From Pleurocapsa sp. PCC 7327 (GTDB lineage: Bacteria > Cyanobacteriota > Cyanobacteriia > Cyanobacteriales > Microcystaceae), in the NCBI RefSeq assembly GCF_000317025.1, contig NC_019689.1:4046024-4110023 (forward strand): a stretch of 64,000 nt of DNA, given 5' to 3'. The position numbers and the translations under genes were made by a program. Numbering within the stretch: the first letter of the stretch is position 1; every line of letters starts with the position of its first letter. This document shows, piece after piece, positions 681 to 55,068 of this stretch. Below the pieces are notes generated by a model that was not told the DNA's origin, did not search any database, and saw nothing but the letters and a program-made list of their open reading frames with translations.

Positions 681-2078
681 TTATACGGCTTGGGAAAACC
701 GATCGCTTTGCTGAGTCCTAAGATAGATATCGAACACGGATGCAATGTTTCTAATCAGCAACCGTCCCGCCGGAGTCACTCGAATGAGATCGCCTCTGAG
801 TTCGAGCAACCCGTCTGCCTCTAGCAAGCGTAAATTATACCGTTCTTTCAAGAAATACTCTTTCCAGTCGAGGTCAAAGCCGAGATGATATTTGTCTTCA
901 ATATCATCTGGTGAAAGCTGAAATTGACACATTAACTCCATAATCGCGGTTCGACGAATGATGTCGTCTCGACTGAGAGTGACTCCCCTTTCGATTGGTA
1001 ATTCTTGTGCGTCGATCGCTCGATCGTATCGCTTTAACCGTTTATGGTTTTGCACGTAAACATCTTGCAACATACTAATGGAAGTCATGCCAAAACCAAG
1101 TAAATCGGATTCTGGCTGGGTGGTGTATCCTTGAAAGTTGCGATGCAATTGCCCGTTTCGCTGGGCGATCGCTAGTTCGTCATTGGGTTTGGCAAAATGA
1201 TCCATGCCAATGAATACGTAACCATTCCCAGTCAATTCCTCAATGGTCATTTTGAGAATATTCAGCTTTTCGGCAGACTGTGGCAAAGCTTCTTGAGGAA
1301 TGCGCCGTTGAATGGGTTTCATCCAAGGCACGTAAGCAAAATTAAAGACGGCAATGCGATCGGGATCGAGGTCAATCGTCTTACGAACCGTGTCCTTAAA
1401 TGTCTCTAAGGTTTGATAGGGTAACCCATAGATTAAATCGACGTTGACACTCTCAAATCCTGCTGAACGAATCCAATCCATTGCCCCAAACAACATTGCT
1501 TCTGGTTGAATGCGGTTGACGGCTTGTTGCACTCTGGGATTAAAGTCTTGAATCCCGAAACTAATGCGGTTAAATCCTAAGTTTCTTAAAAAGAGGATAT
1601 AGTCTTTGTCTAAAAAACGAGGATTAACCTCGATGGAAACTTCGGCGTTGGGAGCGAATTGAAAATATTGATTCAATGTCGTCCAAAGGGCTTCAATCTG
1701 TTTCAAGGAAAGGTAATTGGGCGTACCGCCACCCCAATGAAGTTGGCAAACTTGGCGATCGCGATCCACGAGAGTGGCCATTTGTTGAATATGGCGACTG
1801 ATGTAATTGAGATAAAGCTCCGCTATCTGCTTGCGTTGGGTAATAACCGTATTGCAACCACAGAAATAGCAGGCGGTCTCGCAAAAGGGAATATGACAGT
1901 AAAGCGATAGAGGTGTCTTTTTGCGATTCCCCACAGCGATCGCCGCTCTAAAATCAATTTCTTCAAAGGCTTCTTTCAGTTCCGTTGCGGGTGGGTAGCT
2001 AGTATATCGCGGCAAGGGGCGATCGTATTTTCTCAGTAAATTTGGCTCGAATTCGACGACTTGGGATAGCAGTTTCAT
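681..2078 (-). CDS. hemN: Oxygen-independent coproporphyrinogen III oxidase
   Basis: This radical-SAM enzyme converts coproporphyrinogen III to protoporphyrinogen IX without O2, in the heme and chlorophyll pathway. At 465 aa it has the usual HemN length. The cluster-binding motif CHIPFCETACYFCGC lies at residues 61-75 (C66, C70 and C73 as CxxxCxxC), followed by the glycine-rich SAM motif GGGTPNYLS near 116 and a HemN C-terminal domain. It is the last gene of a minus-strand group downstream of heme oxygenase (6-bp gap) and hemF. In Synechocystis a similar cluster is induced under low oxygen. Here hemN sits beside the O2-dependent isoenzyme HemF. Confidence 0.93.
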   Translation of the reverse strand: MKLLSQVVEFEPNLLRKYDRPLPRYTSYPPATELKEAFEEIDFRAAIAVGNRKKTPLSLYCHIPFCETACYFCGCNTVITQRKQIAELYLNYISRHIQQMATLVDRDRQVCQLHWGGGTPNYLSLKQIEALWTTLNQYFQFAPNAEVSIEVNPRFLDKDYILFLRNLGFNRISFGIQDFNPRVQQAVNRIQPEAMLFGAMDWIRSAGFESVNVDLIYGLPYQTLETFKDTVRKTIDLDPDRIAVFNFAYVPWMKPIQRRIPQEALPQSAEKLNILKMTIEELTGNGYVFIGMDHFAKPNDELAIAQRNGQLHRNFQGYTTQPESDLLGFGMTSISMLQDVYVQNHKRLKRYDRAIDAQELPIERGVTLSRDDIIRRTAIMELMCQFQLSPDDIEDKYHLGFDLDWKEYFLKERYNLRLLEADGLLELRGDLIRVTPAGRLLIRNIASVFDIYLRTQQSDRFSQAV

Positions 2079-2084
2079 GTTCTC

Positions 2085-2837
2085 CTATTCGGCTTTAACA
2101 AGTTCAACTGATGTATTACCCGGCGAACGCTCCGTACTACCTGGCTTGTCTTGACGGGTGAGTAGCTCGAAAATGCGATCGCCAATAGCAGCTTTCACCT
2201 CCGGTTCTAGTTCGCGAACCACGTCGCGATTCAGTTCAAAGGCATAGTTTGCCTCGTCCACAATCTTTTGAGCTAAAGTATCATCAACGGGTAAGGAATC
2301 TAAAGTATCGCGGTATTTCTCCTTAAAAGCGCGTTTTGCTGCGACGGTTGGCAGGCGATCGAATTCATAAAATGCCGTTCCCTCGCCTGCTGGCAAATTC
2401 ATCGCCGAACGGACAATATTTTTCAATGCCTGACCACCAGAAAGATCGCCCATATACCTAACATAGGCATGGGCGATGAGAAGTACGGGTTCCGTTTTAG
2501 CAACCTGACGAATGCGAGCAACATAATCTTGACCGACTTGAGAGGGAGCAATTTGCTCTCGCCAGTTTTCGCCGTAGTAAAAAGCCAAGTCTTTCTCCAG
2601 ATTTTCTTTGCGATTCAGTTCGGGGAAATAAAGCAAACCGACGACAGGATGATGGCGATGGCGATGGAACTCTTCTTCTATGGCGCTGTAGACGAAATAC
2701 AAATTGGCGATGAGCTTGCGGAAGGGTTCTTTTTCGACAATGCCTTTGAGAAAACATTTCATAAAGGCTGTATTTTCCGCCATTGTATGAGACTGTTTCG
2801 TTCCTTCCCGTAACTTGTTGGCTAAATGACTACTCAT
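2085..2837 (-). CDS. Heme oxygenase (biliverdin-forming)
   Basis: It opens heme to biliverdin IXalpha using O2 and ferredoxin, the first step towards phycobilins. The 250-aa protein shows the proximal-heme His region TKQSHTMAEN (H17) and the distal-helix signature YMGDLSGGQ. The ATG at 2835-2837 was chosen because it is preceded by GAGGAA and matches the family N-terminus; the frame is open further upstream but without a good start. The context, between hemF and hemN and near acsF, matches the low-oxygen isoform (HO2) cluster of Synechocystis, but the isoform cannot be decided from sequence alone. Its N-terminal 13 residues recur on the neighbouring HemF. Confidence 0.92.
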   Translation of the reverse strand: MSSHLANKLREGTKQSHTMAENTAFMKCFLKGIVEKEPFRKLIANLYFVYSAIEEEFHRHRHHPVVGLLYFPELNRKENLEKDLAFYYGENWREQIAPSQVGQDYVARIRQVAKTEPVLLIAHAYVRYMGDLSGGQALKNIVRSAMNLPAGEGTAFYEFDRLPTVAAKRAFKEKYRDTLDSLPVDDTLAQKIVDEANYAFELNRDVVRELEPEVKAAIGDRIFELLTRQDKPGSTERSPGNTSVELVKAE

Positions 2838-2949
2838 AGTAAATTCCTCATGGCTAAAGAAAGATGGATGTAGCGATCGCGCTCTTATATCAAGTCCGAG
2901 CAAACAGTTATGAATAACTGGTAAACACTTGGACGCACGAAAAGCGAAT

Positions 2950-3996
2950 TTAAATCGACCAGTCTTCAACAGACCAATTGACCCAATCTTGGGGTTTGAG
3001 AAAGACTTCGTACAGTTGTGCTTCCGGCGTTCCGGGTTGGGGTTGGTAATTATATTCCCATCGCGCTAGCGGCGGCAGGGACATCAAAATCGATTCCGTT
3101 CGTCCGTTGGTTTGCAAGCCAAAAACCGTGCCGCGATCGTAAACGAGATTAAACTCTACATAGCGTCCCCGACGGTAAAGTTGGAACTGACGCTCGCGAT
3201 CGCTATACTGGGTGTCTTGCCGCCGCTCTACAATTGGCAGATAGGCTGGCAAAAAAGCGCGACCGCAACTTTGAACGAAAGCAAATAGCTCCTCCCAACT
3301 GCGAGGAATCGTCCCAACTTGACGGCTATAAATAGCTGCCTCACCCTCTGGGTCGGGTCCGCAATAGAGCTTCCCGCGAGCATCCTGATAATCAAAAAAG
3401 ATACCTCCAACTCCTCGCGCTTCCTGGCGGTGTTTTAAGTAAAAATATTCATCGCACCAGCGTTTAAAAGCGGGATAGTATTCGAGGTGGTGAGCGTCAC
3501 AAGCGTTCTTAATCGTAGAATGGAAGTGAATGACATCCTCGACAAAGGGATAGTAAGGCGTTAAATCTACGCCACCCCCAAACCACCAAATCGGTCCTGC
3601 CTCAAAGTAGCGGTAGTTGAGATGTACGGTGGGAACGTAGGGATTTCGGGGGTGGAGAACCATCGAAGTTCCGGTGGCATAGAAGTTATGTCCTGCCGCC
3701 TCTGGACGCTGAGCGAGAATAGAAGCGGGAAGACTATCTCCCCAAACCTCAGAAAAGTTTACCCCGCCTTGTTCAAATACTCGACCGTCTCGAATAACGC
3801 GGGTACGTCCGCCCCCACCTTCTGCTCGTTCCCAGTTATCTTCTTGAAAGCGTGCTTTACCGTCGAGTTGCTGTAGCGCTTGGCAGATTTCGTCTTGTAA
3901 GTCCTGTACGAACTGCTTGGCTTTCTGACGAGAATAGGCAGAAGGATATGCTGGTGGGGTTTGTTCCCTAAGTTGATTGGCTAAATGACTGTTCAT
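2950..3996 (-). CDS. hemF: Oxygen-dependent coproporphyrinogen III oxidase
   Basis: HemF performs the same step as HemN but with O2 and no iron-sulfur cluster. The 348-aa protein carries the family blocks [41 protein letters not shown] and the region around the conserved substrate-binding His residues. It ends 113 bp upstream of the heme oxygenase start. Oddity: the N-terminal leader [13 protein letters not shown] is not the usual HemF start and is 10/13 identical to the start of the adjacent heme oxygenase (MSSHLANKLREGT). This suggests the 5' end was replaced by, or fused to, a duplicated heme-oxygenase start. Confidence 0.93.
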
Positions 3997-4093
3997 TTTT
4001 CTATTTCTGTTTAGTTTTTACGCTTAATAACCATCGCTTAATAACTATATAGATATATAGACTTTAATCCAATCTAGATTTTTCAAAACTTAA

Positions 4094-4109
4094 TAATTGG
4101 AGTCAATTA
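4094..4109. promoter_or_regulatory. Candidate operator in the hemF/acsF divergent promoter
   Basis: The 164-bp gap between the divergent hemF and acsF genes is AT-rich and contains the inverted repeat TAATTG-N4-CAATTA. A second, weaker near-palindrome (CTATATAGATATATAG) lies near 4044-4059. In Synechocystis the comparable chlAII-ho2-hemN cluster is activated by the MarR-type regulator ChlR, so a shared control site here is expected. Which repeat is bound, if any, is inference. Confidence 0.35.
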
Positions 4110-4160
4110 CACTTTTATATTTATAATTTCATATAGCTATTTAGTTAAGTAATTGCACTT

Positions 4161-5237
4161 ATGGTCAATACCTTATCAAAACCCGCCACAGAAGAACCCA
4201 AGTCCAATCCTCAAGCCCTTATTCAGGAAACAATTCTCGCGCCTCGGTTTTATACGACAGACTTTGAAGCCGCAGCCAACTTCGATCTTTCCCTTCAGGA
4301 AACCGCGCTCAAGGCGATGCTAGATGAGATGCGAACTGACTACAACCGCCGCCATTTCGTTCGCGATGAAGCATTTGAGCAAACTTGGGACGATCTTGAC
4401 GAAGAAACGCGCAACTCTTTTATCGATTACCTGGAACGCTCCTGTGTCTCAGAATTTTCTGGTTTTCTGCTGTTCAAAGAGTTATCTCGCTCTCTCAAAC
4501 AGCGCAATCCCCTGCTGGCAGAAATTTTTCACCTGATGGCGCGGGATGAGGCTCGTCATGCGGGATTCCTCAATAAGGCGATGGGTGACTTTAACCGCTC
4601 TTTAGACTTAGCACGACTGACCAAAACTCGTACCTATACGTTCTTTCCGCTGGAGTGGGTGATTTATACGGTTTACCTGTCCGAAAAAATTGGCTACTGG
4701 CGCTACATTATTATTTACCGTCACCTAGAAAAGCATCCAGAGCATCAGTTTTATCCATTATTTCGTTATTTTGAGAGTTGGTGTCAGGATGAAAATCGTC
4801 ACGGAGATATTTTCAAGGCACTGCTGCGATCGCAACCCAAACTTTGGAACAATTGGAAAGCTAGACTCTGGAGCCGATTTTTCCTATTATCCGTCTTTGC
4901 CACCCACAGTCTAACCGTCCAAGAACGAGCAGGCTTCTATCATTCACTAGGACTCGACGCGACCGAGTTTGACGAGCAAGTGATTCGCAAAACCAATGAA
5001 ACTGCGGCACGAGCATTCCCCGCTGTCTTAAATGTTGACCATCCTGAATTTTTCCCGCGCATGCAACGGTGTGCAAAGCGAAATCTTAAACTAAAAGCGA
5101 TTAGCGAGAATAACTTCCCTAAGGTAGTTAAGTTTTTGCAAAAACTTCCTTTATTAGGAGGAATTTTCTGGGATTTGTTTCGTCTTTACCTGATTAAACC
5201 CATTGATGCTGAAGCTTTGCGGGGAACGGTGCGTTGA
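4161..5237 (+). CDS. acsF: Mg-protoporphyrin IX monomethyl ester oxidative cyclase (aerobic)
   Basis: This diiron enzyme builds the isocyclic E ring of chlorophyll using O2. The 358-aa protein has the ferritin-like diiron ligands seen as FKELSR, the motif ARDEARHAGF and ENRHGD, matching the AcsF/ChlA family over its whole length. It starts with an ATG at 4161 and is divergent from hemF. Cyanobacteria often carry two copies: one aerobic, and one (ChlAII) for micro-oxic conditions grouped with ho2 and hemN. The neighbourhood points to the ChlAII type. It is followed by IS605 debris, so it may mark a former cluster boundary. Confidence 0.93.
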   Translation: MVNTLSKPATEEPKSNPQALIQETILAPRFYTTDFEAAANFDLSLQETALKAMLDEMRTDYNRRHFVRDEAFEQTWDDLDEETRNSFIDYLERSCVSEFSGFLLFKELSRSLKQRNPLLAEIFHLMARDEARHAGFLNKAMGDFNRSLDLARLTKTRTYTFFPLEWVIYTVYLSEKIGYWRYIIIYRHLEKHPEHQFYPLFRYFESWCQDENRHGDIFKALLRSQPKLWNNWKARLWSRFFLLSVFATHSLTVQERAGFYHSLGLDATEFDEQVIRKTNETAARAFPAVLNVDHPEFFPRMQRCAKRNLKLKAISENNFPKVVKFLQKLPLLGGIFWDLFRLYLIKPIDAEALRGTVR

Positions 5238-48712: not shown

Positions 48713-48860
48713 GAAAATAAAGAAACGATTATTACCGAGTTATCTCAATTTAAAAAATGTTGGCGACAGACTATAGCAGTTTTCAGTTTGGACACTTGAG
48801 ATGGAGCGATGAGTTAAACAACAAGATACACGAGTTCTGCAATGTAGCTCTCTAGCGAAA

Positions 48861-49410
48861 CTACTCCTCGTGTAACGCGATCGCGCTTTGGCATTTTCTT
48901 TTGATCGCCAGGGTTGTTATCTTGGAGAAGAATACTGCTGTCTTGTTTGAAAACCCCATATTCTGCATCGTCCCGATCCACTGGTCGCGCGGAGTTTCCA
49001 TTCCTTTGACTGGTTTTTGTAAAGCTTTGGCAAATGCTTGTGCAACATCGAGCACAAAATATCTTTCTGGTCCTTCGATGTTGTATCATCCTGTATTCTC
49101 TATTGGCTCTGTCATCAAACGCGCTGCCAACTGACCAATATCGCGCGGAGCGACCATCGACAAGACAAAATCGGTTGGAAAGAAGGTATTGATTCCGCCA
49201 TTGTGTTTAATGTTTTGTAGAGAAAAGTCCCAATTACTCATGTAGTAGGCAGCACGAATGATACTAGATGGTATGGACTGAGCAGCGAGTTGCTGCTCCA
49301 TTTCGTAAAGCACTCCAAAATCGCCAATTTGAGAACCGAGTTGCGCTCCATAATGAGAAGCGCAATGTTGTACTCAAGCAGCTTGATGACCCCGTTCACC
49401 CGCCCTTCTG
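48861..49410 (-). pseudogene. NmrA-type NAD(P)-binding protein, decayed
   Basis: On the minus strand, GAQLGSQIGDFGVLYEMEQQ, IRAAYYMSNWDFSLQNIKHN, TDFVLSMVAPRDIGQLAARL and then, after an in-frame TGA at about 49094, YNIEGPERYFVLDVAQAFAK can be read. This is the middle and end of an NmrA/SDR-like protein. The N-terminal Rossmann start is missing, and a further stop (near 49375) interrupts the upstream part. It borders the palindrome of the zinc island. Confidence 0.7.
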
Positions 49411-49426
49411 GATAAACGTATCGCGC

Positions 49427-49455
49427 TTTATTATAATGATAATCATTATAATAAA
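49427..49455. promoter_or_regulatory. Zur/Fur-type operator, box 1
   Basis: A perfect 29-bp palindrome (14+1+14) centred on base 49441, core AATGATAATCATT. It contains TGATAATCATTATAA, one mismatch from the 7-1-7 pattern TGATAAT-N-ATTATCA used by Fur-family repressors. It lies 58 bp before the first COG0523 gene. The genes controlled (COG0523, thrS) favour Zur over Fur. Confidence 0.8.
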
Positions 49456-49512
49456 AATACTCTACCAAAAAAGTTAGCGAAAATAAATAATTGTTACTCA
49501 GGAACTAATTCT

Positions 49513-50508
49513 ATGAATCGATTACTGATTCGAGAACAGCCAAATTGGGGAATACCCGTTACGATTATCACTGGTTTTTTAGGCAGTGGCAAAACCACCT
49601 TACTCAATCAAATCCTCCAAAATAAACAGGATTTAAAAGTTGCAGTCTTAGTGAATGAATTTGGAGATATTAGTATCGATTCTCAACTTCTCGTCTCTTA
49701 CGATGACGATATGGTGGAATTGAGTAATGGCTGTATTTGTTGCACCATCAATGATGGATTGATTGAAGCAGTCTATCGGATTTTGGAACGCGATGAGAAG
49801 GTCGATTATCTGGTCATTGAAACAACGGGAATTGCCGATCCTCTACCGATTATTTTGACCTTTGTCGGAACAGAATTTCGCGATTCAACTCGTTTGGATT
49901 CTATTATTACAGTGGTCGATGCCGATTTGTTTGATGCCGACCATTTTAACAGTGAAGCGGCAATGAGTCAGATTGCTTACGCCGATATAGTTTTACTCAA
50001 CAAAATCGATCTGGTTACCCCAGAAAAACTAGCAGAGTTAGAATCTCAAATCAAAACTTTTAAACAAGGAGCGAGAATTTTACAGACTCAATATTGTCAA
50101 GTACCACTAGGACTCATTTTGGACGTAGGATTAACACCCATTGAAGCTTATAAAAACGAGGAAGAATCCGATCGTTATCACGACCATAAATATCATTCCC
50201 ATCACTTAGAAAATGATGGATTTGTTTCAATGTCTTTTACCAGCGATCGCCCCTTTGATGTTTACAAGTTTCAGAAGTTTTTAACCGAACAAATACCAAA
50301 TGAAGTATTTCGAGCTAAAGGAATTATTTGGTTTGATGGAAGTGAACTGCGTCATGTTTTTCAATTAAGCGGTCCTCGCTACGATATGAAATCCGATCGT
50401 TGGACAGGTTTGCCGTCTAACCAGTTAGTTTTTATCGGTCGTCATTTAGATACCGATAAAATTCGACACTCATTAAATGACTGCTTAGTTGCTTCTGTTG
50501 CTGTTTAA
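49513..50508 (+). CDS. COG0523 (CobW-like) GTPase with His-rich loop, putative zinc metallochaperone
   Basis: The 331-aa G3E GTPase has Walker A GFLGSGKTT (21-29), the metal motif CICC (74-77), VIETTG (101-106), NKID (163-166), a His-rich loop YHDHKYHSHH (222-231) and a CobW C-terminal domain. COG0523 proteins insert or deliver metals; members under Zur control act in zinc shortage. The His loop adds a metal-holding site that the second paralogue at 53900 lacks. It is preceded by operator box 1 and followed by thrS after 69 bp. Confidence 0.9.
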   Translation: MNRLLIREQPNWGIPVTIITGFLGSGKTTLLNQILQNKQDLKVAVLVNEFGDISIDSQLLVSYDDDMVELSNGCICCTINDGLIEAVYRILERDEKVDYLVIETTGIADPLPIILTFVGTEFRDSTRLDSIITVVDADLFDADHFNSEAAMSQIAYADIVLLNKIDLVTPEKLAELESQIKTFKQGARILQTQYCQVPLGLILDVGLTPIEAYKNEEESDRYHDHKYHSHHLENDGFVSMSFTSDRPFDVYKFQKFLTEQIPNEVFRAKGIIWFDGSELRHVFQLSGPRYDMKSDRWTGLPSNQLVFIGRHLDTDKIRHSLNDCLVASVAV

Positions 50509-50577
50509 TCACTAATGAGTTAAAAGTCGCGATCGCAACTTTTGATCAAACAATCATTATTATCAAAAATACTCGAT

Positions 50578-52464
50578 ATGGTCAGTCAGTCAACCCAATC
50601 TCAAAGCGACAATCCCCTGCAAGTTTCCAATCTGCAAAAATTAGATCGCATTCGCCACACTTGCGCCCATATCATGGCAATGGCAGTACAAATCTTATTT
50701 CCAGAGACAAAAGTTACCATTGGACCGACTACAGATACGGGTTTTTATTATGATTTCGAGCGCCCGCAACCTTTTACTCCTGAAGATTTAATCAAAATTA
50801 CCAAACAAATGCGCTTAATTATTAAAGCTAATTTGCCGATTATTCGGGAAGAGGTAGCTAGGGAAGAAATTAAAGTCGAAATCGAACAGCTAGGCGAACC
50901 CTACAAACTAGAGATTTTAGACAGCATTCCTGAAGGAGAAACTATTACTCGTTACTATATCGGTAGTCCTGACGGTGGTAGATTGCCTAATATCGGAGAA
51001 AAGCTGAAAGCTGCCTTACCAGAACCTTCTTTAATTAAACCCGTCAAAATTCCTGCTACTGTATCTTGGTGGGATTTGTGCGCAGGACCTCATGTTAAAA
51101 CTACAGGAGAGATTAACCCAGATGCTTTTGCCTTAGAAAGCGTGGCTGGTGCATACTGGCGCGGAGATGAAACCAAAGCCCAACTACAACGCATCTACGG
51201 TACTGCTTGGGAAACTCCCGAACAGTTAGAAGCTTATTTACAAAAAAAAGAAGAAGCCAAACGCAGAGATCATCGCAAACTAGGCAAGGAGTTAAAACTG
51301 TTTAGCATTCAAGAAGATGCTGGTGGTGGTTTGGTATTTTGGCATCCTCGCGGTGCAACTATGCGCTGCATCATTGAAGATTATTGGCGTAAGGCACATT
51401 TAGATGCAGGTTATGAACTTCTCTATACACCTCACATTGCCAATTTAGAATTATGGAAAACATCGGGTCATGTTGATTTTTATCGGGAAAATATGTTTGA
51501 CTCGATGAAGATTGAGGAACAGGCTTATCAAATCAAGCCAATGAACTGTCCGTTTCACGTTCTTATCTATAAAAATGACCTCCATTCCTATCGAGAATTA
51601 CCTTTGCGTTGGGCGGAATTAGGAACTGTATATCGTTATGAACGTTCTGGTGTCTTGCATGGTTTAATGCGGGTGCGGGGCTTTACTCAAGATGATGCCC
51701 ATATTTTCTGTTTATCCACACAAATTGCAGGGGAAATTCTCAGTATTCTTAATTTAACGGAAAAAATTCTTTCGGATTTTGGTTTTAAAGACTATGAAGT
51801 CAATCTCTCTACTCGCCCAGATAAGTCAGTCGGTACAGATGAAGGTTGGGAATTGGCGACTAATGCTTTAGTAGAAGCTTTGAAGACAAAGGGGTGGGAT
51901 TACCTGGAAGATAAGGGTGGTGGTGCTTTCTATGGTCCAAAGATCGATATTAAAATTCAAGATGCTATTGGACGTACTTGGCAATGTTCGACTATCCAGG
52001 TAGATTTTAATTTACCAGAACGCTTCGATCTCGAATATGTAGCAGCTAATGGTTCTCGTCAACGTCCCATTATGATTCATCGGGCAATTTTTGGGTCTTT
52101 AGAGCGTTTTTACGGGATTTTAATCGAAAACTATGCAGGAGATTTTCCTTTATGGTTAGCACCGATTCAAATACGTTTATTACCAGTGAGTGAAACACAA
52201 AGAGAGTATGCTGAATCTGTTGCTGCTAATTTCAAACAAGCTGGTTATCGGGTAGAAATAGACTGCACGGGGGAACGTTTGGGTAAACAAATCCGCAATG
52301 CTGAGTTAGAAAAGATTCCTGTGGTAGCAGTGGTTGGTAAACAGGAAGTAGCCGAGCAAACTTTAAGCATTCGTACTAGAAAAGAAGGCGATCTCGGTGT
52401 CATGACTGTCGACGAGCTACAAAGGCGAATGCAAGGGGCAATAGAAGCAAAAACAACTATTTAA
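50578..52464 (+). CDS. thrS: Threonyl-tRNA synthetase, probably the Zur-regulated second copy
   Basis: The 628-aa class II synthetase lacks the N-terminal TGS domain, as in other cyanobacterial ThrRS. It keeps the editing domain residues H27xxxH31 and C168xxxH172 (DLCAGPH), and the catalytic zinc ligands C324 (MNCPFH), H375 (DDAHIF) and H501 (MIHRAI). So it still looks zinc-dependent. In Anabaena a second thrS is induced by zinc shortage through Zur; the position behind box 1 and a COG0523 gene suggests the same here. The ATG at 50578 was chosen over an upstream TTG. A second genomic copy cannot be checked. Confidence 0.92.
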   Translation: MVSQSTQSQSDNPLQVSNLQKLDRIRHTCAHIMAMAVQILFPETKVTIGPTTDTGFYYDFERPQPFTPEDLIKITKQMRLIIKANLPIIREEVAREEIKVEIEQLGEPYKLEILDSIPEGETITRYYIGSPDGGRLPNIGEKLKAALPEPSLIKPVKIPATVSWWDLCAGPHVKTTGEINPDAFALESVAGAYWRGDETKAQLQRIYGTAWETPEQLEAYLQKKEEAKRRDHRKLGKELKLFSIQEDAGGGLVFWHPRGATMRCIIEDYWRKAHLDAGYELLYTPHIANLELWKTSGHVDFYRENMFDSMKIEEQAYQIKPMNCPFHVLIYKNDLHSYRELPLRWAELGTVYRYERSGVLHGLMRVRGFTQDDAHIFCLSTQIAGEILSILNLTEKILSDFGFKDYEVNLSTRPDKSVGTDEGWELATNALVEALKTKGWDYLEDKGGGAFYGPKIDIKIQDAIGRTWQCSTIQVDFNLPERFDLEYVAANGSRQRPIMIHRAIFGSLERFYGILIENYAGDFPLWLAPIQIRLLPVSETQREYAESVAANFKQAGYRVEIDCTGERLGKQIRNAELEKIPVVAVVGKQEVAEQTLSIRTRKEGDLGVMTVDELQRRMQGAIEAKTTI

Positions 52465-52480
52465 TAGTGAGGAGATAGCT

Positions 52481-52603
52481 ATGATAAATCGCGAAGTATC
52501 TTGGTATTTTGCTTTAAAACTGCTGTGTCAACAATTAACTTCCGCGATCGCTTTTTCTTTACTCCTTGCTTGGGTTAGTTGGTTTCTTACTATCGGTAGT
52601 TAA
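52481..52603 (+). CDS. 40-residue membrane peptide downstream of thrS
   Basis: An ATG with a strong ribosome site (GAGGAG, 6 bases away) starts 17 bp after the thrS stop. It encodes MINREVSWYFALKLLCQQLT followed by SAIAFSLLLAWVSWFLTIGS: a polar-aromatic start and one membrane helix. The good ribosome site, position inside the zinc-type unit and absence of overlap argue for a real gene. No family is recognised. It may be an accessory subunit of a membrane process or a regulator; this is speculation. Confidence 0.6.
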   Translation: MINREVSWYFALKLLCQQLTSAIAFSLLLAWVSWFLTIGS

Positions 52604-52642
52604 TGATGATGTATTAAACTCCAAACGTGACAAACGATGCTA

Positions 52643-52663
52643 TAATAATGATAATCATTATTA
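52643..52663. promoter_or_regulatory. Zur/Fur-type operator, box 2
   Basis: A perfect 21-bp palindrome (10+1+10) centred on 52653, sharing the core AATAATGATAATCATTATT with box 1 in its inner 13 bases. It lies 109 bp before the folE start and should head the folE-hisI-COG0523 unit. Confidence 0.78.
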
Positions 52664-52771
52664 AAAATGGAGTGCCGATCGCGTCGGTGCAAACCACTTG
52701 TCAAAAGTTAGCTTTATAACAGTTATTCCTCTGCATTCCTACCTAATTTTTTGTTGTTTAGATTCATCTAT

Positions 52772-53428
52772 ATGACCTTATCTAAGTCCGAACCTACTGC
52801 AATCAAATCGACTAAAAGTTCCTTCCCCAATCTGACTACCGAACATCAATCTCTTGTTTCAGAAGAGGATATGATCCAGGCGGTACGGACTTTACTGTTA
52901 GGATTAGGAGAAGATCCAGATCGCGAAGGGTTAAAAGATACTCCCAAACGAGTCGTTAAAGCCTTACAATTCCTGACGTCAGGGTATCATCAATCTCTCG
53001 ATGAATTGCTTAACGGAGCAGTTTTTCATGAAGATACCGACGAGATGGTATTGGTGCGAGATATCGATCTTTTCAGTTCCTGCGAACATCATATCCTACC
53101 CATTTTAGGTCGCGCTCACGTCGCCTATATTCCTGATGGAAAAGTAATGGGACTCTCAAAAATCGCGCGCATTTGTGAAATGTATGCCAGACGCTTGCAA
53201 GTGCAAGAAAGATTAACCGCACAAATTGCCGATGCCATACAAGGATTATTAAAACCAAAAGGCGTGGCGGTTGTTATCGAAGCAACTCATATGTGTATGG
53301 TGATGCGGGGAGTACAAAAACCCGGTTCTTGGACTTCTACCAGTGCCGTGAGGGGAGTCTTTGCAGAAGATGCGAAAACTCGTCAAGAATTTATGAGTTT
53401 AATTTGTCATAATCCTACCTTTCATTAA
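52772..53428 (+). CDS. folE: GTP cyclohydrolase I (zinc-dependent type)
   Basis: It converts GTP to dihydroneopterin triphosphate, the first step of folate and pterin synthesis. The 218-aa protein has the zinc ligands C104 and H107 (SSCEHHILP) and C175 (THMCMVMRG), plus [20 protein letters not shown]. It is thus the zinc-requiring IA type, not the zinc-independent FolE2. FolE copies beside COG0523 genes are a known Zur-regulon feature, thought to keep folate synthesis going by extra enzyme or by metal delivery. The ATG at 52772 is used. Confidence 0.93.
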
Positions 53429-53456
53429 CTAAATTCCAAGTTAAACAGCGTGCCAT

Positions 53457-53490
53457 AAGTAGGGATGAGTTATTTCTCATCTCTACTTTT
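53457..53490 (+). terminator. Hairpin with short T run between folE and hisI
   Basis: GTAGGGATGAG (53459-53469) pairs with CTCATCTCTAC (53476-53486; one G-T pair), loop TTATTT, followed by TTTT. It lies just before the hisI ribosome site (CGGAG). It may be a partial terminator or mRNA-stability element that sets folE above hisI. Confidence 0.5.
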
Positions 53491-53504
53491 CCGGAGATAA
53501 AAAC

Positions 53505-53861
53505 ATGAATCAAGATTTTCTTTGGATTGAACGATTAAAATTTAACGAGCAAGGATTAATTCCTGCCATTGCTCAAGATTATCGAGATGGCGCTATCTTG
53601 ATGATGGCATGGATGAATAGAGAATCAATTCAGCAAACTTTGATGACAGGAGAAGTATATTATTGGAGTCGCTCTCGACAAGAATTATGGCACAAAGGGG
53701 CAACTTCCGGACATATTCAGAAAGTGAAAGAATTTTATTATGATTGCGATGCTGATACCTTGTTATTAAAAATCAAACAGATTGGAGATATTGCCTGTCA
53801 TACGGGTAAAAGAAGTTGTTTTTTTAATTTGGTTCCTATCAATTCGTTTCATCAGATCTAG
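53505..53861 (+). CDS. hisI: Phosphoribosyl-AMP cyclohydrolase
   Basis: It opens the purine ring of phosphoribosyl-AMP in histidine synthesis; it needs Zn2+ and Mg2+. The 118-aa stand-alone HisI (no HisE domain) has the metal residues D80, C81, D82, D84 (YYDCDADTL) and the zinc cysteines C98 and C105 (ACHTGKRSC). A HisI copy next to COG0523 and folE is unusual for a plain histidine gene and typical of zinc-limitation sets. It is third in the inferred box 2 unit, following folE after a hairpin. Confidence 0.92.
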
Positions 53862-53899
53862 GTTAATTTTTATGAGCTAATTTCTTCAAATCTAATAAT

Positions 53900-54913
53900 A
53901 TGAATAGTCTCAATATCTCTCTTTCCGATTCTCTGCCTACTCTTCCCAAAAGGGGAATGCCAGTAACTATTATCACTGGTTTCTTGGGCAGTGGCAAAAC
54001 AACTTTGCTCAATCATATTCTAGAAAATAGACAAGGGTTGAAAGTTGCTGTTTTAGTCAATGAATTTGGCGATATTAATATCGATTCTCAACTTCTAGTT
54101 TCAACGGAAGAAGATATGTTGGAGTTGAGCAATGGTTGTATCTGCTGTACGATTAATGATGGTTTAATCGAGGCAGTCTATCAAATTTTAGAAAGAGAAG
54201 ATAAAATCGATTATTTGATTATTGAAACGACAGGATTAGCCGATCCTTTTCCGATTATTTTGACTTTTATAGCTACTGAGTTAAAGTTTTTAACCCATCT
54301 GGATTCGATTATTACGTTGGTCGATTCGGAAATTTTTACTCCCGAACATTTTGAGAGTGATATCGCTCTTCGTCAGATCAAATATGGCGACATTATCATT
54401 CTCAATAAATTAGATAGAGTTGATGAGAGAAAAATCAAAGAGTTAGAAGATTTTGTTCGAGGTAATAAAGAAGGGGTGAGAATTTTTCATAGTCAATATG
54501 GGAAGGTTCCGCTAACATTACTTTTGGGAGTAGGATTAACTCAAGAAGATATTTATATCAGTCAAATTAGAAAATTTCGGCGCGATCGCGAATCTTCTGG
54601 TTATCATATAGAAAATGATGGATTTGTAGCAGTTTCTTTTGAGAGCGATCGTCCTTTTGATTTACAGAAATTCGAGAACTTTATTGTCGAGCAAATGCCT
54701 TATACTGTCTTTCGAGCTAAGGGAATTCTTTGGTTTGAAGAAAGCAAATTGAGACATATTTTTCAGCTTAGCGGCAATCGTTACGAACTCGAAGCAGATG
54801 AATGGCAAACGCAACCTAAAAATCAGCTGGTTTTGATCGGTCGGAATTTAGATACTACGCTCATTCACGAGCAACTAAAAACCTGCTTGATTTCTCATTC
54901 TACTGACGATTAA
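53900..54913 (+). CDS. Second COG0523 (CobW-like) GTPase, no His-rich loop
   Basis: The 337-aa paralogue of the GTPase at 49513 shares long identical blocks (PVTIITGFLGSGKTTLLN, VAVLVNEFGDI, LSNGCICCTINDGLIEAVY). Walker A is at 27-35 and CICC at 80-83. Where the first copy has a histidine cluster this one reads RRDRESSGYHIENDG, with one His. The two may differ in metal holding or client enzymes: this one is grouped with folE and hisI, the other with thrS. It ends the box 2 unit. A tRNA gene follows on the other strand. Confidence 0.9.
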   Translation: MNSLNISLSDSLPTLPKRGMPVTIITGFLGSGKTTLLNHILENRQGLKVAVLVNEFGDINIDSQLLVSTEEDMLELSNGCICCTINDGLIEAVYQILEREDKIDYLIIETTGLADPFPIILTFIATELKFLTHLDSIITLVDSEIFTPEHFESDIALRQIKYGDIIILNKLDRVDERKIKELEDFVRGNKEGVRIFHSQYGKVPLTLLLGVGLTQEDIYISQIRKFRRDRESSGYHIENDGFVAVSFESDRPFDLQKFENFIVEQMPYTVFRAKGILWFEESKLRHIFQLSGNRYELEADEWQTQPKNQLVLIGRNLDTTLIHEQLKTCLISHSTDD

Positions 54914-54996
54914 ACTTTTTCTGCTCGGAACCTAACTTTTGGTTTCGCTTTTTTTGCTGTTAGGATAAATTTTTTTGAATTCCTCGATCTCCAAAA

Positions 54997-55068
54997 AGCC
55001 AGTTGCGGGATTTGAACCCGCGACCCTCGCATTACGAGTGCGATGCTCTACCACTGAGCTAAACTGGC
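54997..55068 (-). tRNA. tRNA-Thr (anticodon CGU)
   Basis: A 72-nt cloverleaf: acceptor GCCAGTT/AACTGGC, D arm TAGCTCAGTGGTAGAGC, anticodon stem TCGCA/TGCGA with loop CTCGTAA (anticodon CGT), T arm GCGGGTTCAAATCCCGC, discriminator T. It reads ACG codons. CCA is not encoded. It lies 2.5 kb from a threonyl-tRNA synthetase gene. Confidence 0.95.

Follow-up and report, generated by a model that had tools for sequence, protein, structure and literature searches.

Gene Content of the Island

A stretch of 64,000 nucleotides from Pleurocapsa sp. PCC 7327 (NC_019689.1, positions 4,046,024 to 4,110,023), analysed here as the window, contains an island in which two Zur-type palindromes precede second copies of genes for three zinc enzymes and two genes for COG0523 GTPases. 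The island is probably a Zur-controlled zinc-starvation locus. A first-pass annotation, made from the letters alone, had placed a COG0523 gene, thrS and an open reading frame (ORF) of 40 amino acids (aa) behind the first palindrome, and folE, hisI and a further COG0523 gene behind the second. This order is borne out, with coordinates as follows.

49431..49451, no strand assigned: box 1, Zur-type palindrome TTATAATGATAATCATTATAA, 16/16 fixed consensus bases
49513-50508, plus strand: COG0523-A GTPase, with Walker A, GCICC and a short His stretch, HDHKYHSHH (Pfam/NCBIfam)
50578-52464, plus strand: thrS2, T2-type threonyl-tRNA synthetase with a long editing-domain insert, ligands C324, H375 and H501
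52481-52603, plus strand: 40-aa ORF, with homology to the last 34 residues of a FeoB-like GTPase-permease
52643..52663, no strand assigned: box 2, Zur-type palindrome TAATAATGATAATCATTATTA, 16/16 fixed consensus bases
52772-53428, plus strand: folE2, zinc-type GTP cyclohydrolase I, with C104, H107 and C175 (Pfam/NCBIfam)
53505-53861, plus strand: hisI2, phosphoribosyl-AMP cyclohydrolase without HisE, with C81, C98 and C105 (Pfam/NCBIfam)
53900-54913, plus strand: COG0523-B GTPase, with Walker A and GCICC, without the His stretch (Pfam/NCBIfam)

The families of five of the six island proteins are backed by Pfam and NCBIfam. FolE2 is of type IA, the zinc type, with a GTP_cyclohydroI domain and the zinc ligands. 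HisI2 has a PRA-CH domain with three ligand cysteines; it consists of the cyclohydrolase domain alone, while the other copy in the genome is a HisIE fusion, which refines the first reading. Both GTPases carry cobW and CobW_C domains, Walker A and a CxCC motif. Neither reaches the NCBIfam cut-off for ZigA (600 bits; A 220, B 203) or for CobW (332 bits; A 200, B 194). The start of thrS2 is the ATG at 50578, with an alternative open start, TTG, at 50542; folE2 likewise has an alternative open TTG at 52751.

Zur-Type Boxes, Promoter-Like Sites and a Putative Regulator

The published cyanobacterial Zur consensus TNANAATGATNATCATTNTNA fixes 16 bases (PMC9337993; this and the other papers are cited from excerpts). 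Boxes 1 and 2 match all 16, and shuffles gave 0/100 at one mismatch or fewer, which upholds the earlier view of the palindromes as Zur-type operators. The genome, a single contig of 4,986,817 bases, contains their 17-base core, ATAATGATAATCATTAT, in exactly two places, both of them within the island; at two mismatches or fewer, the window holds four strand-wise matches versus 0.03 expected. Perfect matches to the consensus number three genome-wide, namely boxes 1 and 2 and one that precedes a DsrE-like gene and a cysS paralogue. At three mismatches or fewer there are 58 matches per strand versus 47 for a control pattern read backwards, so only sites with at most two mismatches were taken as signal at the genome scale. 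For upstream stretches of relatives, a looser limit of 13/16 was used with its own controls.

The palindrome of box 1 lies 61 bases 5' of COG0523-A and that of box 2 lies 108 bases 5' of folE2. The remaining control features are listed below.

49409..49437, plus strand: promoter-like site TGGATA-17-TATAAT, its -10 overlapping box 1 (10/12, consensus match only)
50545..50568, no strand assigned: thrS2-proximal site, 11/16, read as a decayed box
52627..52655, plus strand: promoter-like site GTGACA-17-GATAAT, its -10 within box 2 (10/12, consensus match only)
54926..54947, plus strand: terminator-like hairpin 3' of the box 2 unit, after COG0523-B (consensus match only)

Promoter-like sites amount to 21 overall versus 14.8 expected, and such matches are weak by themselves. 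No plus-strand terminator is predicted before box 2, so read-through from box 1 is possible. The thrS2-proximal site is read as decayed because the nearest relatives keep a box of 13-16/16 at this place; control of thrS2 would then come from box 1, upstream of COG0523-A.

Three FUR-family genes were found in the genome. One of them (L034) was compared with the PDB, where its best match is SynZur (7NE9, E 1.4e-29). Judged by similarity alone, a Zur-like regulator is present.

The Second Threonyl-tRNA Synthetase

Anabaena has two threonyl-tRNA synthetases (ThrRS), T1 and T2. In its T2, the editing domain carries an insert, and two T1 inserts, of 6 and 3 residues, are missing; low zinc induces the enzyme, which is a poor proofreader and receives help from T1 (PMC4787780). 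The first-pass annotation had likened thrS2 to this second thrS, and the insert signature agrees. The editing region measures 48 residues in the T2 of Pleurocapsa sp. PCC 7327 versus 14 in its T1, and T2 is without the 6- and 3-residue inserts of T1. In other words, insert a is present and the T1 inserts b and c are absent in thrS2, and the other genomic copy has the T1 signature.

Relatives of thrS2 were collected by a contig scan, from which the best 80 of at least 577 confirmed loci were retained; these are the best-scoring loci and not a random sample. The 6-residue insert of T1 is absent in 79/79 usable proteins of this set. Enough upstream sequence for a box scan was available at 76/80 loci. 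A box of at least 13/16 lies within 500 bases upstream in 59/76, versus 76/1,389 stretches taken at random from these loci, some containing other boxes. Within 250 bases, a box is found at 58/59 scannable loci with the long insert versus 1/17 with a short insert, the exceptions being L092 and L050, and none precedes T1 thrS in 28 T1 loci. The long editing-domain insert and the Zur-type box thus go together. The insert has been described as missing or short where T2 is the sole ThrRS, and its tie to the box is not stated in the excerpt of that paper (PMC4787780). This tie is in keeping with the notion that a synthetase with poor proofreading is tolerated only when need switches it on.

Two further proposals concerning thrS2 were rejected. 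A tRNA-Thr(CGT) gene lies just 3' of the island (54997-55068), but no tRNA-Thr gene is found in any of the 80 thrS2 loci, whose lengths vary, and the proximity is taken as coincidence. Horizontal gain of thrS2 was proposed from its 86-89% identity to copies in other families. This high identity is no sign of transfer, because T2 is usually the better conserved of the two enzymes: it is so in 5/6 genome pairs (for G037-G025, T1 81.6% and T2 90.9%), with G025-G029 as the exception.

Housekeeping Copies and Zinc Ligands

Second copies of all three enzyme genes were looked for and are present elsewhere in the genome: a thrS (57% identical), a folE (71%) and a hisIE fusion (73%). The first-pass annotation had named sole copies as grounds for abandoning its zinc-allocation proposal; since other copies exist, that objection falls away. 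The genome contains three further COG0523 genes. One of them, at L023 4925-5940 (G000:C1 4965924-4966939) behind a 14/16 box, seems frame-broken near its C-terminal part.

The zinc ligands of ThrRS, C324, H375 and H501, are kept in 81/81 rows aligned with E. coli ThrRS as guide, these rows being the 79 usable proteins of the 80 loci together with T1 and T2 of Pleurocapsa sp. PCC 7327. As for the editing motifs, HxxxH is found in 80/81 rows (one gap) and C..H in 81. The ligand residues are likewise retained in FolE2 (C104, H107, C175) and HisI2 (C81, C98, C105), where the ligand identities are those of the known structures. The claim that all three enzymes keep their zinc ligands therefore holds in the alignments.

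The genome has a second zinc-type island at L022 3076-9713 (G000:C1 3191075-3197712), with boxes of 16, 15 and 15 of 16. It contains a cysS paralogue, two DsrE-like genes, genes for an FAD/NAD oxidoreductase and a DUF4198 exported protein, and a hemB. Its CysS retains the zinc ligands, and its HemB is of the Asp type. The regulon as a whole may mix zinc-loaded and zinc-free strategies.

COG0523 GTPases and Their Partners

The neighbours of thrS2 were counted in the same 80 loci. The counts are lower bounds, as many contigs are short, and locus L116 belongs to neither insert class. Among the 61 long-insert loci, 35 hold a COG0523 gene (A, B or D type) and nine hold two or more; folE2 occurs in 22, close hemB in 11, hisI2 in nine, and cysS2 and a DsrE-like gene in six each. 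A COG0523 gene was found in one of the 18 short-insert loci, and folE2, hisI2, cysS2, a DsrE-like gene and close hemB in none. Over the best 80 loci, folE2 is present in 23, and a COG0523 gene stands directly upstream in 23/23, at a distance of 18-356 bases. The most constant neighbour link is that of COG0523 with folE2. It agrees with the relation between ZagA and FolE in B. subtilis, as cited in PMC13339975 and PMC10882993.

The tree of 54 COG0523 proteins leaves out L043 (A type) and L099, both <270 aa, L041 (A type, split by a frame break) and the COG0523s of the congeners. The COG0523-B clade (support 100/99) comprises genes just 3' of thrS2 in Microcystis and genes divergent from thrS2 or kilobases away from it in other lineages. 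Within the genus, COG0523-B comes directly after folE2 (G001, G003:C14) or after hisI2 (G002, G003:C181), which accounts for 4/4 copies. COG0523-A groups weakly (81/98, long branch) with the gene before folE2 in L044, and its counterpart in G003 (86% identity) also precedes folE2. A separate clade unites the three COG0523s that other lineages carry between folE2 and hisI2. Approximately unbiased (AU) tests, whose groups were chosen with the tree in view, reject joining COG0523-B with the hisI2-adjacent COG0523s (p 0.016) and joining COG0523-A with COG0523-B (p 0.003).

The first-pass annotation had paired each GTPase with the enzymes of its own unit. The pairing of COG0523-B with folE2 and hisI2 stands within the genus but fails outside it, where COG0523-B is found near thrS2; the pairing of COG0523-A with thrS2 is seen only here. 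One GTPase per client, as judged by operon, was therefore rejected as an unsafe guide because partners shift among lineages, even though the place of COG0523-B is constant in the congeners. Whether the GTPases would deliver zinc directly to the neighbouring enzymes stands at about even odds. If direct delivery happens, FolE is the likeliest client.

Congeners and Assembly of the Island

In G002, the closest congener, one segment of the window is missing and 219 unmatched bases stand in its place; the flanks on either side of this segment match the window at about 96%.

48756..52640, no strand assigned: variable segment (gene remnant, box 1, COG0523-A, thrS2, 40-aa ORF), missing at the matching place in the closest congener

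In G002, the unit of folE2, hisI2 and COG0523-B is intact behind a perfect box. T2 occurs in 10/58 genomes searched, that of Pleurocapsa sp. PCC 7327 included, and in none of the three congeners. A search made with COG0523-B showed COG0523-A in G003 and not in G001 or G002. A stand-alone hisI2 at 76% identity or more is found in 4/58 genomes, and a fifth has fragments of it. Pleurocapsa sp. PCC 7327 and G002 thus share the box 2 unit; the box 1 unit varies. Its distribution is compatible with gain in Pleurocapsa sp. PCC 7327 as well as with loss in the congeners and does not distinguish between them.

No mobile element was seen on inspection by eye of the ORFs in the variable segment. The gene remnant at 48795-49353 (minus strand) has 81% DNA identity to congener locus L179 351-910, where a 168-aa ORF is open.

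In G003:C181 (L178 379-8863), a perfect box is followed by znuA, COG0523-A, folE2, hisI2, COG0523-B, an 84-aa ORF, a DUF1636 gene, a DsrE gene and cysS2, and znuC- and znuB-like genes diverge from znuA across this box (the transporter names are read from the ORFs). The shared COG0523-A, folE2, hisI2 and COG0523-B have 82-96% identity to those of the window. Unlike the window, this operon has one box, with the genes downstream of znuA, it has no thrS2, and the N-terminal frame of COG0523-B is broken.

A comparable neighbourhood exists in the annotated record of Trichormus variabilis ATCC 29413 plasmid A. At about 250.8-258.9 kb, thrS, a COG0523 GTPase gene and a stand-alone hisI lie in a row, beside hemB and genes for a zinc transporter of the ATP-binding cassette (ABC) type. 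In contrast to the window, no folE is present in the 19 kb shown, and DUF1636 and methyltransferase genes are interspersed. Independently of the box, the neighbourhoods in G003 and on plasmid A link the genes of the window to zinc uptake.

The plasmid island (L234, NC_007410.1 245777-264983), with its thrS, COG0523, hisI, hemB and zinc ABC genes, lies on a plasmid typed as conjugative, and such zinc islands may move. No plasmid copy of the whole Pleurocapsa island was detected at megablast sensitivity; part of thrS only was matched, in 2/72,556 plasmid records.

Proposed Mechanism and Alternatives

The best explanation is that the island is under Zur control and serves in zinc starvation, with a probability of about 0.82; this figure does not extend to the delivery step. 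Zur control of a known kind is argued for by the perfect boxes over promoter-like sites, the Zur-like regulator, the second copies elsewhere in the genome, the T2 type of thrS2, the tie of insert and box, the place of COG0523 upstream of folE2, and the linkage to znuA in a congener and to zinc ABC genes on plasmid A. With sufficient zinc, Zur would occupy the two boxes, covering the -10 regions, and keep both units off. As zinc falls, Zur would leave the boxes and both units would be made. By analogy with Anabaena, the second ThrRS would remain dimeric and active when zinc is low but be poor at proofreading, and its editing would lean on the housekeeping T1. An additional GTP cyclohydrolase of the zinc type and an additional phosphoribosyl-AMP cyclohydrolase without HisE would also be made at low zinc, and the two COG0523 GTPases may help to place the scarce zinc where it is needed. 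Zur binding, induction and the division of labour between T2 and T1 are thus modelled on known relatives.

Several observations weigh against this explanation. There is no Zur box directly 5' of thrS2, where the proximal site reaches 11/16. No strong box was found at the genome's two znuA genes in the stretches fetched (best 13/17 core bases at one, <13 at the other). T2 is absent from the congeners, and among them COG0523-A was seen in G003 but not in G001 or G002, so the genus as a whole does not share the box 1 unit. In Anabaena, every attempt to show binding of T2 to the co-transcribed COG0523 failed (Rubio 2015, PMC4787780). A response of the boxes to iron, weighed below, is also counted here.

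The island may be Zur-controlled without its GTPases loading these enzymes; the extra copies would then raise enzyme number, and the GTPases would serve other clients or buffer zinc. This alternative, held at somewhat less than an even chance, departs from the best explanation only at the delivery step, and the confidences in the two overlap. Extra copy number has been offered as an alternative where ligands are kept (Haas 2009, PMC2770081), and both the missing T2-COG0523 interaction in Anabaena (PMC4787780) and the variation of COG0523 partner genes between lineages are in keeping with it. It accounts less well for the position of COG0523 upstream of folE2 in all 23 loci, for the adjacency of COG0523-B to folE2 or hisI2 in all four congeneric copies, and for the way in which ZagA sustains FolE in B. 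subtilis (as cited in PMC13339975).

That the boxes answer to iron via Fur is very improbable. The genome has three FUR-family genes, and the box core resembles the classic Fur box. Against this, the boxes match every fixed base of the published Zur consensus, and such boxes, both in this genome and in relatives, stand before genes for zinc enzymes and COG0523 proteins as well as znu-like genes.

Marginally less probable still are zinc-free replacements using another metal, which are known from other Zur regulons (FolE_IB, HemB2; PMC10882993, PMC2770081): the ligands are kept in ThrRS, FolE and HisI, and zinc alone among the metals surveyed in Anabaena supported T2 (PMC4787780). The HemB of the genome's other island, which is of the Asp type, is a point in favour of such replacement.

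Relation to Known Systems

The Zur-controlled, zinc-starvation reading places the island in a known kind of response, in a new arrangement. The thrS2 operon of Anabaena sp. PCC 7120 likewise has a T2-type thrS, a co-transcribed COG0523 gene (all4722) and Zur control (PMC4787780, PMC6103462), and the table of the Anabaena Zur (FurB) regulon contains hemB2, thrS2, folE2 and three COG0523 genes (PMC6103462). The window differs from Anabaena in that COG0523-A precedes thrS2, whose proximal site is only 11/16, and in that folE2, hisI2 and COG0523-B have a box to themselves; the Anabaena row of the table, as excerpted, does not list hisI (PMC6103462). Proteobacterial Zur-regulated COG0523 clusters also hold paralogues of HisI, CysRS and ThrRS with kept ligands, but their examples include FolE2 of a zinc-independent type, whereas FolE here is of the zinc type (Haas 2009, PMC2770081). 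Relative to the cited papers, as far as their excerpts go, the arrangement, the association of insert and box, the changes of partner and the origin of the small ORF are new.

With two GTPases and three candidate clients that have housekeeping twins, all within 5.5 kb, the island is a compact test bed for the question of whether Zur-controlled COG0523 GTPases deliver zinc to adjacent paralogues.

The 40-aa ORF and a FeoB-Like Permease

A Pfam scan of the 40-aa ORF gave no match. A permissive search of all fetched loci with this ORF returned five matches besides itself at E <0.001, all to the C-terminus of one protein type. The protein is 510-547 aa long in four loci and split by a frame break in L094; the others are L095 (7998-9641), L052, L070 and L076. 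The L095 protein scores 56.8 bits for Gate (cut-off 29.6) and 41.9 for MMR_HSR1 (cut-off 21.9). FeoB_N, at 20.1, stays under its cut-off of 27, so the protein is not assigned to FeoB and is called FeoB-like only. The 40-aa peptide aligns to the permease with a score of 70, versus a maximum of 48 in 1,000 shuffles of the peptide. The C-terminal matches thus indicate that the ORF is a remnant or small derivative of a FeoB-like permease.

All five permease genes sit in thrS2 loci, after a gene for an FAD-dependent oxidoreductase, and in 4/5 a box of 15-16/16 lies within 1,600 bases upstream (best 10 in L052). The permease is a candidate further zinc importer. In a literature search for a Zur-linked transporter of this type, none of the 8 papers listed out of 45 uses the term "FeoB-like", which is weak evidence of absence. 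A wider proposal, which we consider unlikely, is that in some cyanobacteria a FeoB-like GTPase-permease under Zur control serves as an additional zinc importer and that the 40-aa membrane peptide is its retained, translated C-terminal piece; the island's COG0523s would then be primarily FolE chaperones shuffled among neighbours, and T2 would keep its zinc otherwise.

Further Observations

Two membrane proteins of about 200 aa (L025 3125-3739 and L178 10793-11392) look alike by eye and fall below all Pfam cut-offs. One is encoded behind a weak box (13/16; 15/17 core bases) and the other near the congener's znuA operon. Elsewhere in the window, at 681-5237, lies a cluster that reads by eye as hemN-like, heme oxygenase, hemF-like and diiron cyclase-like genes, as in low-oxygen tetrapyrrole synthesis.

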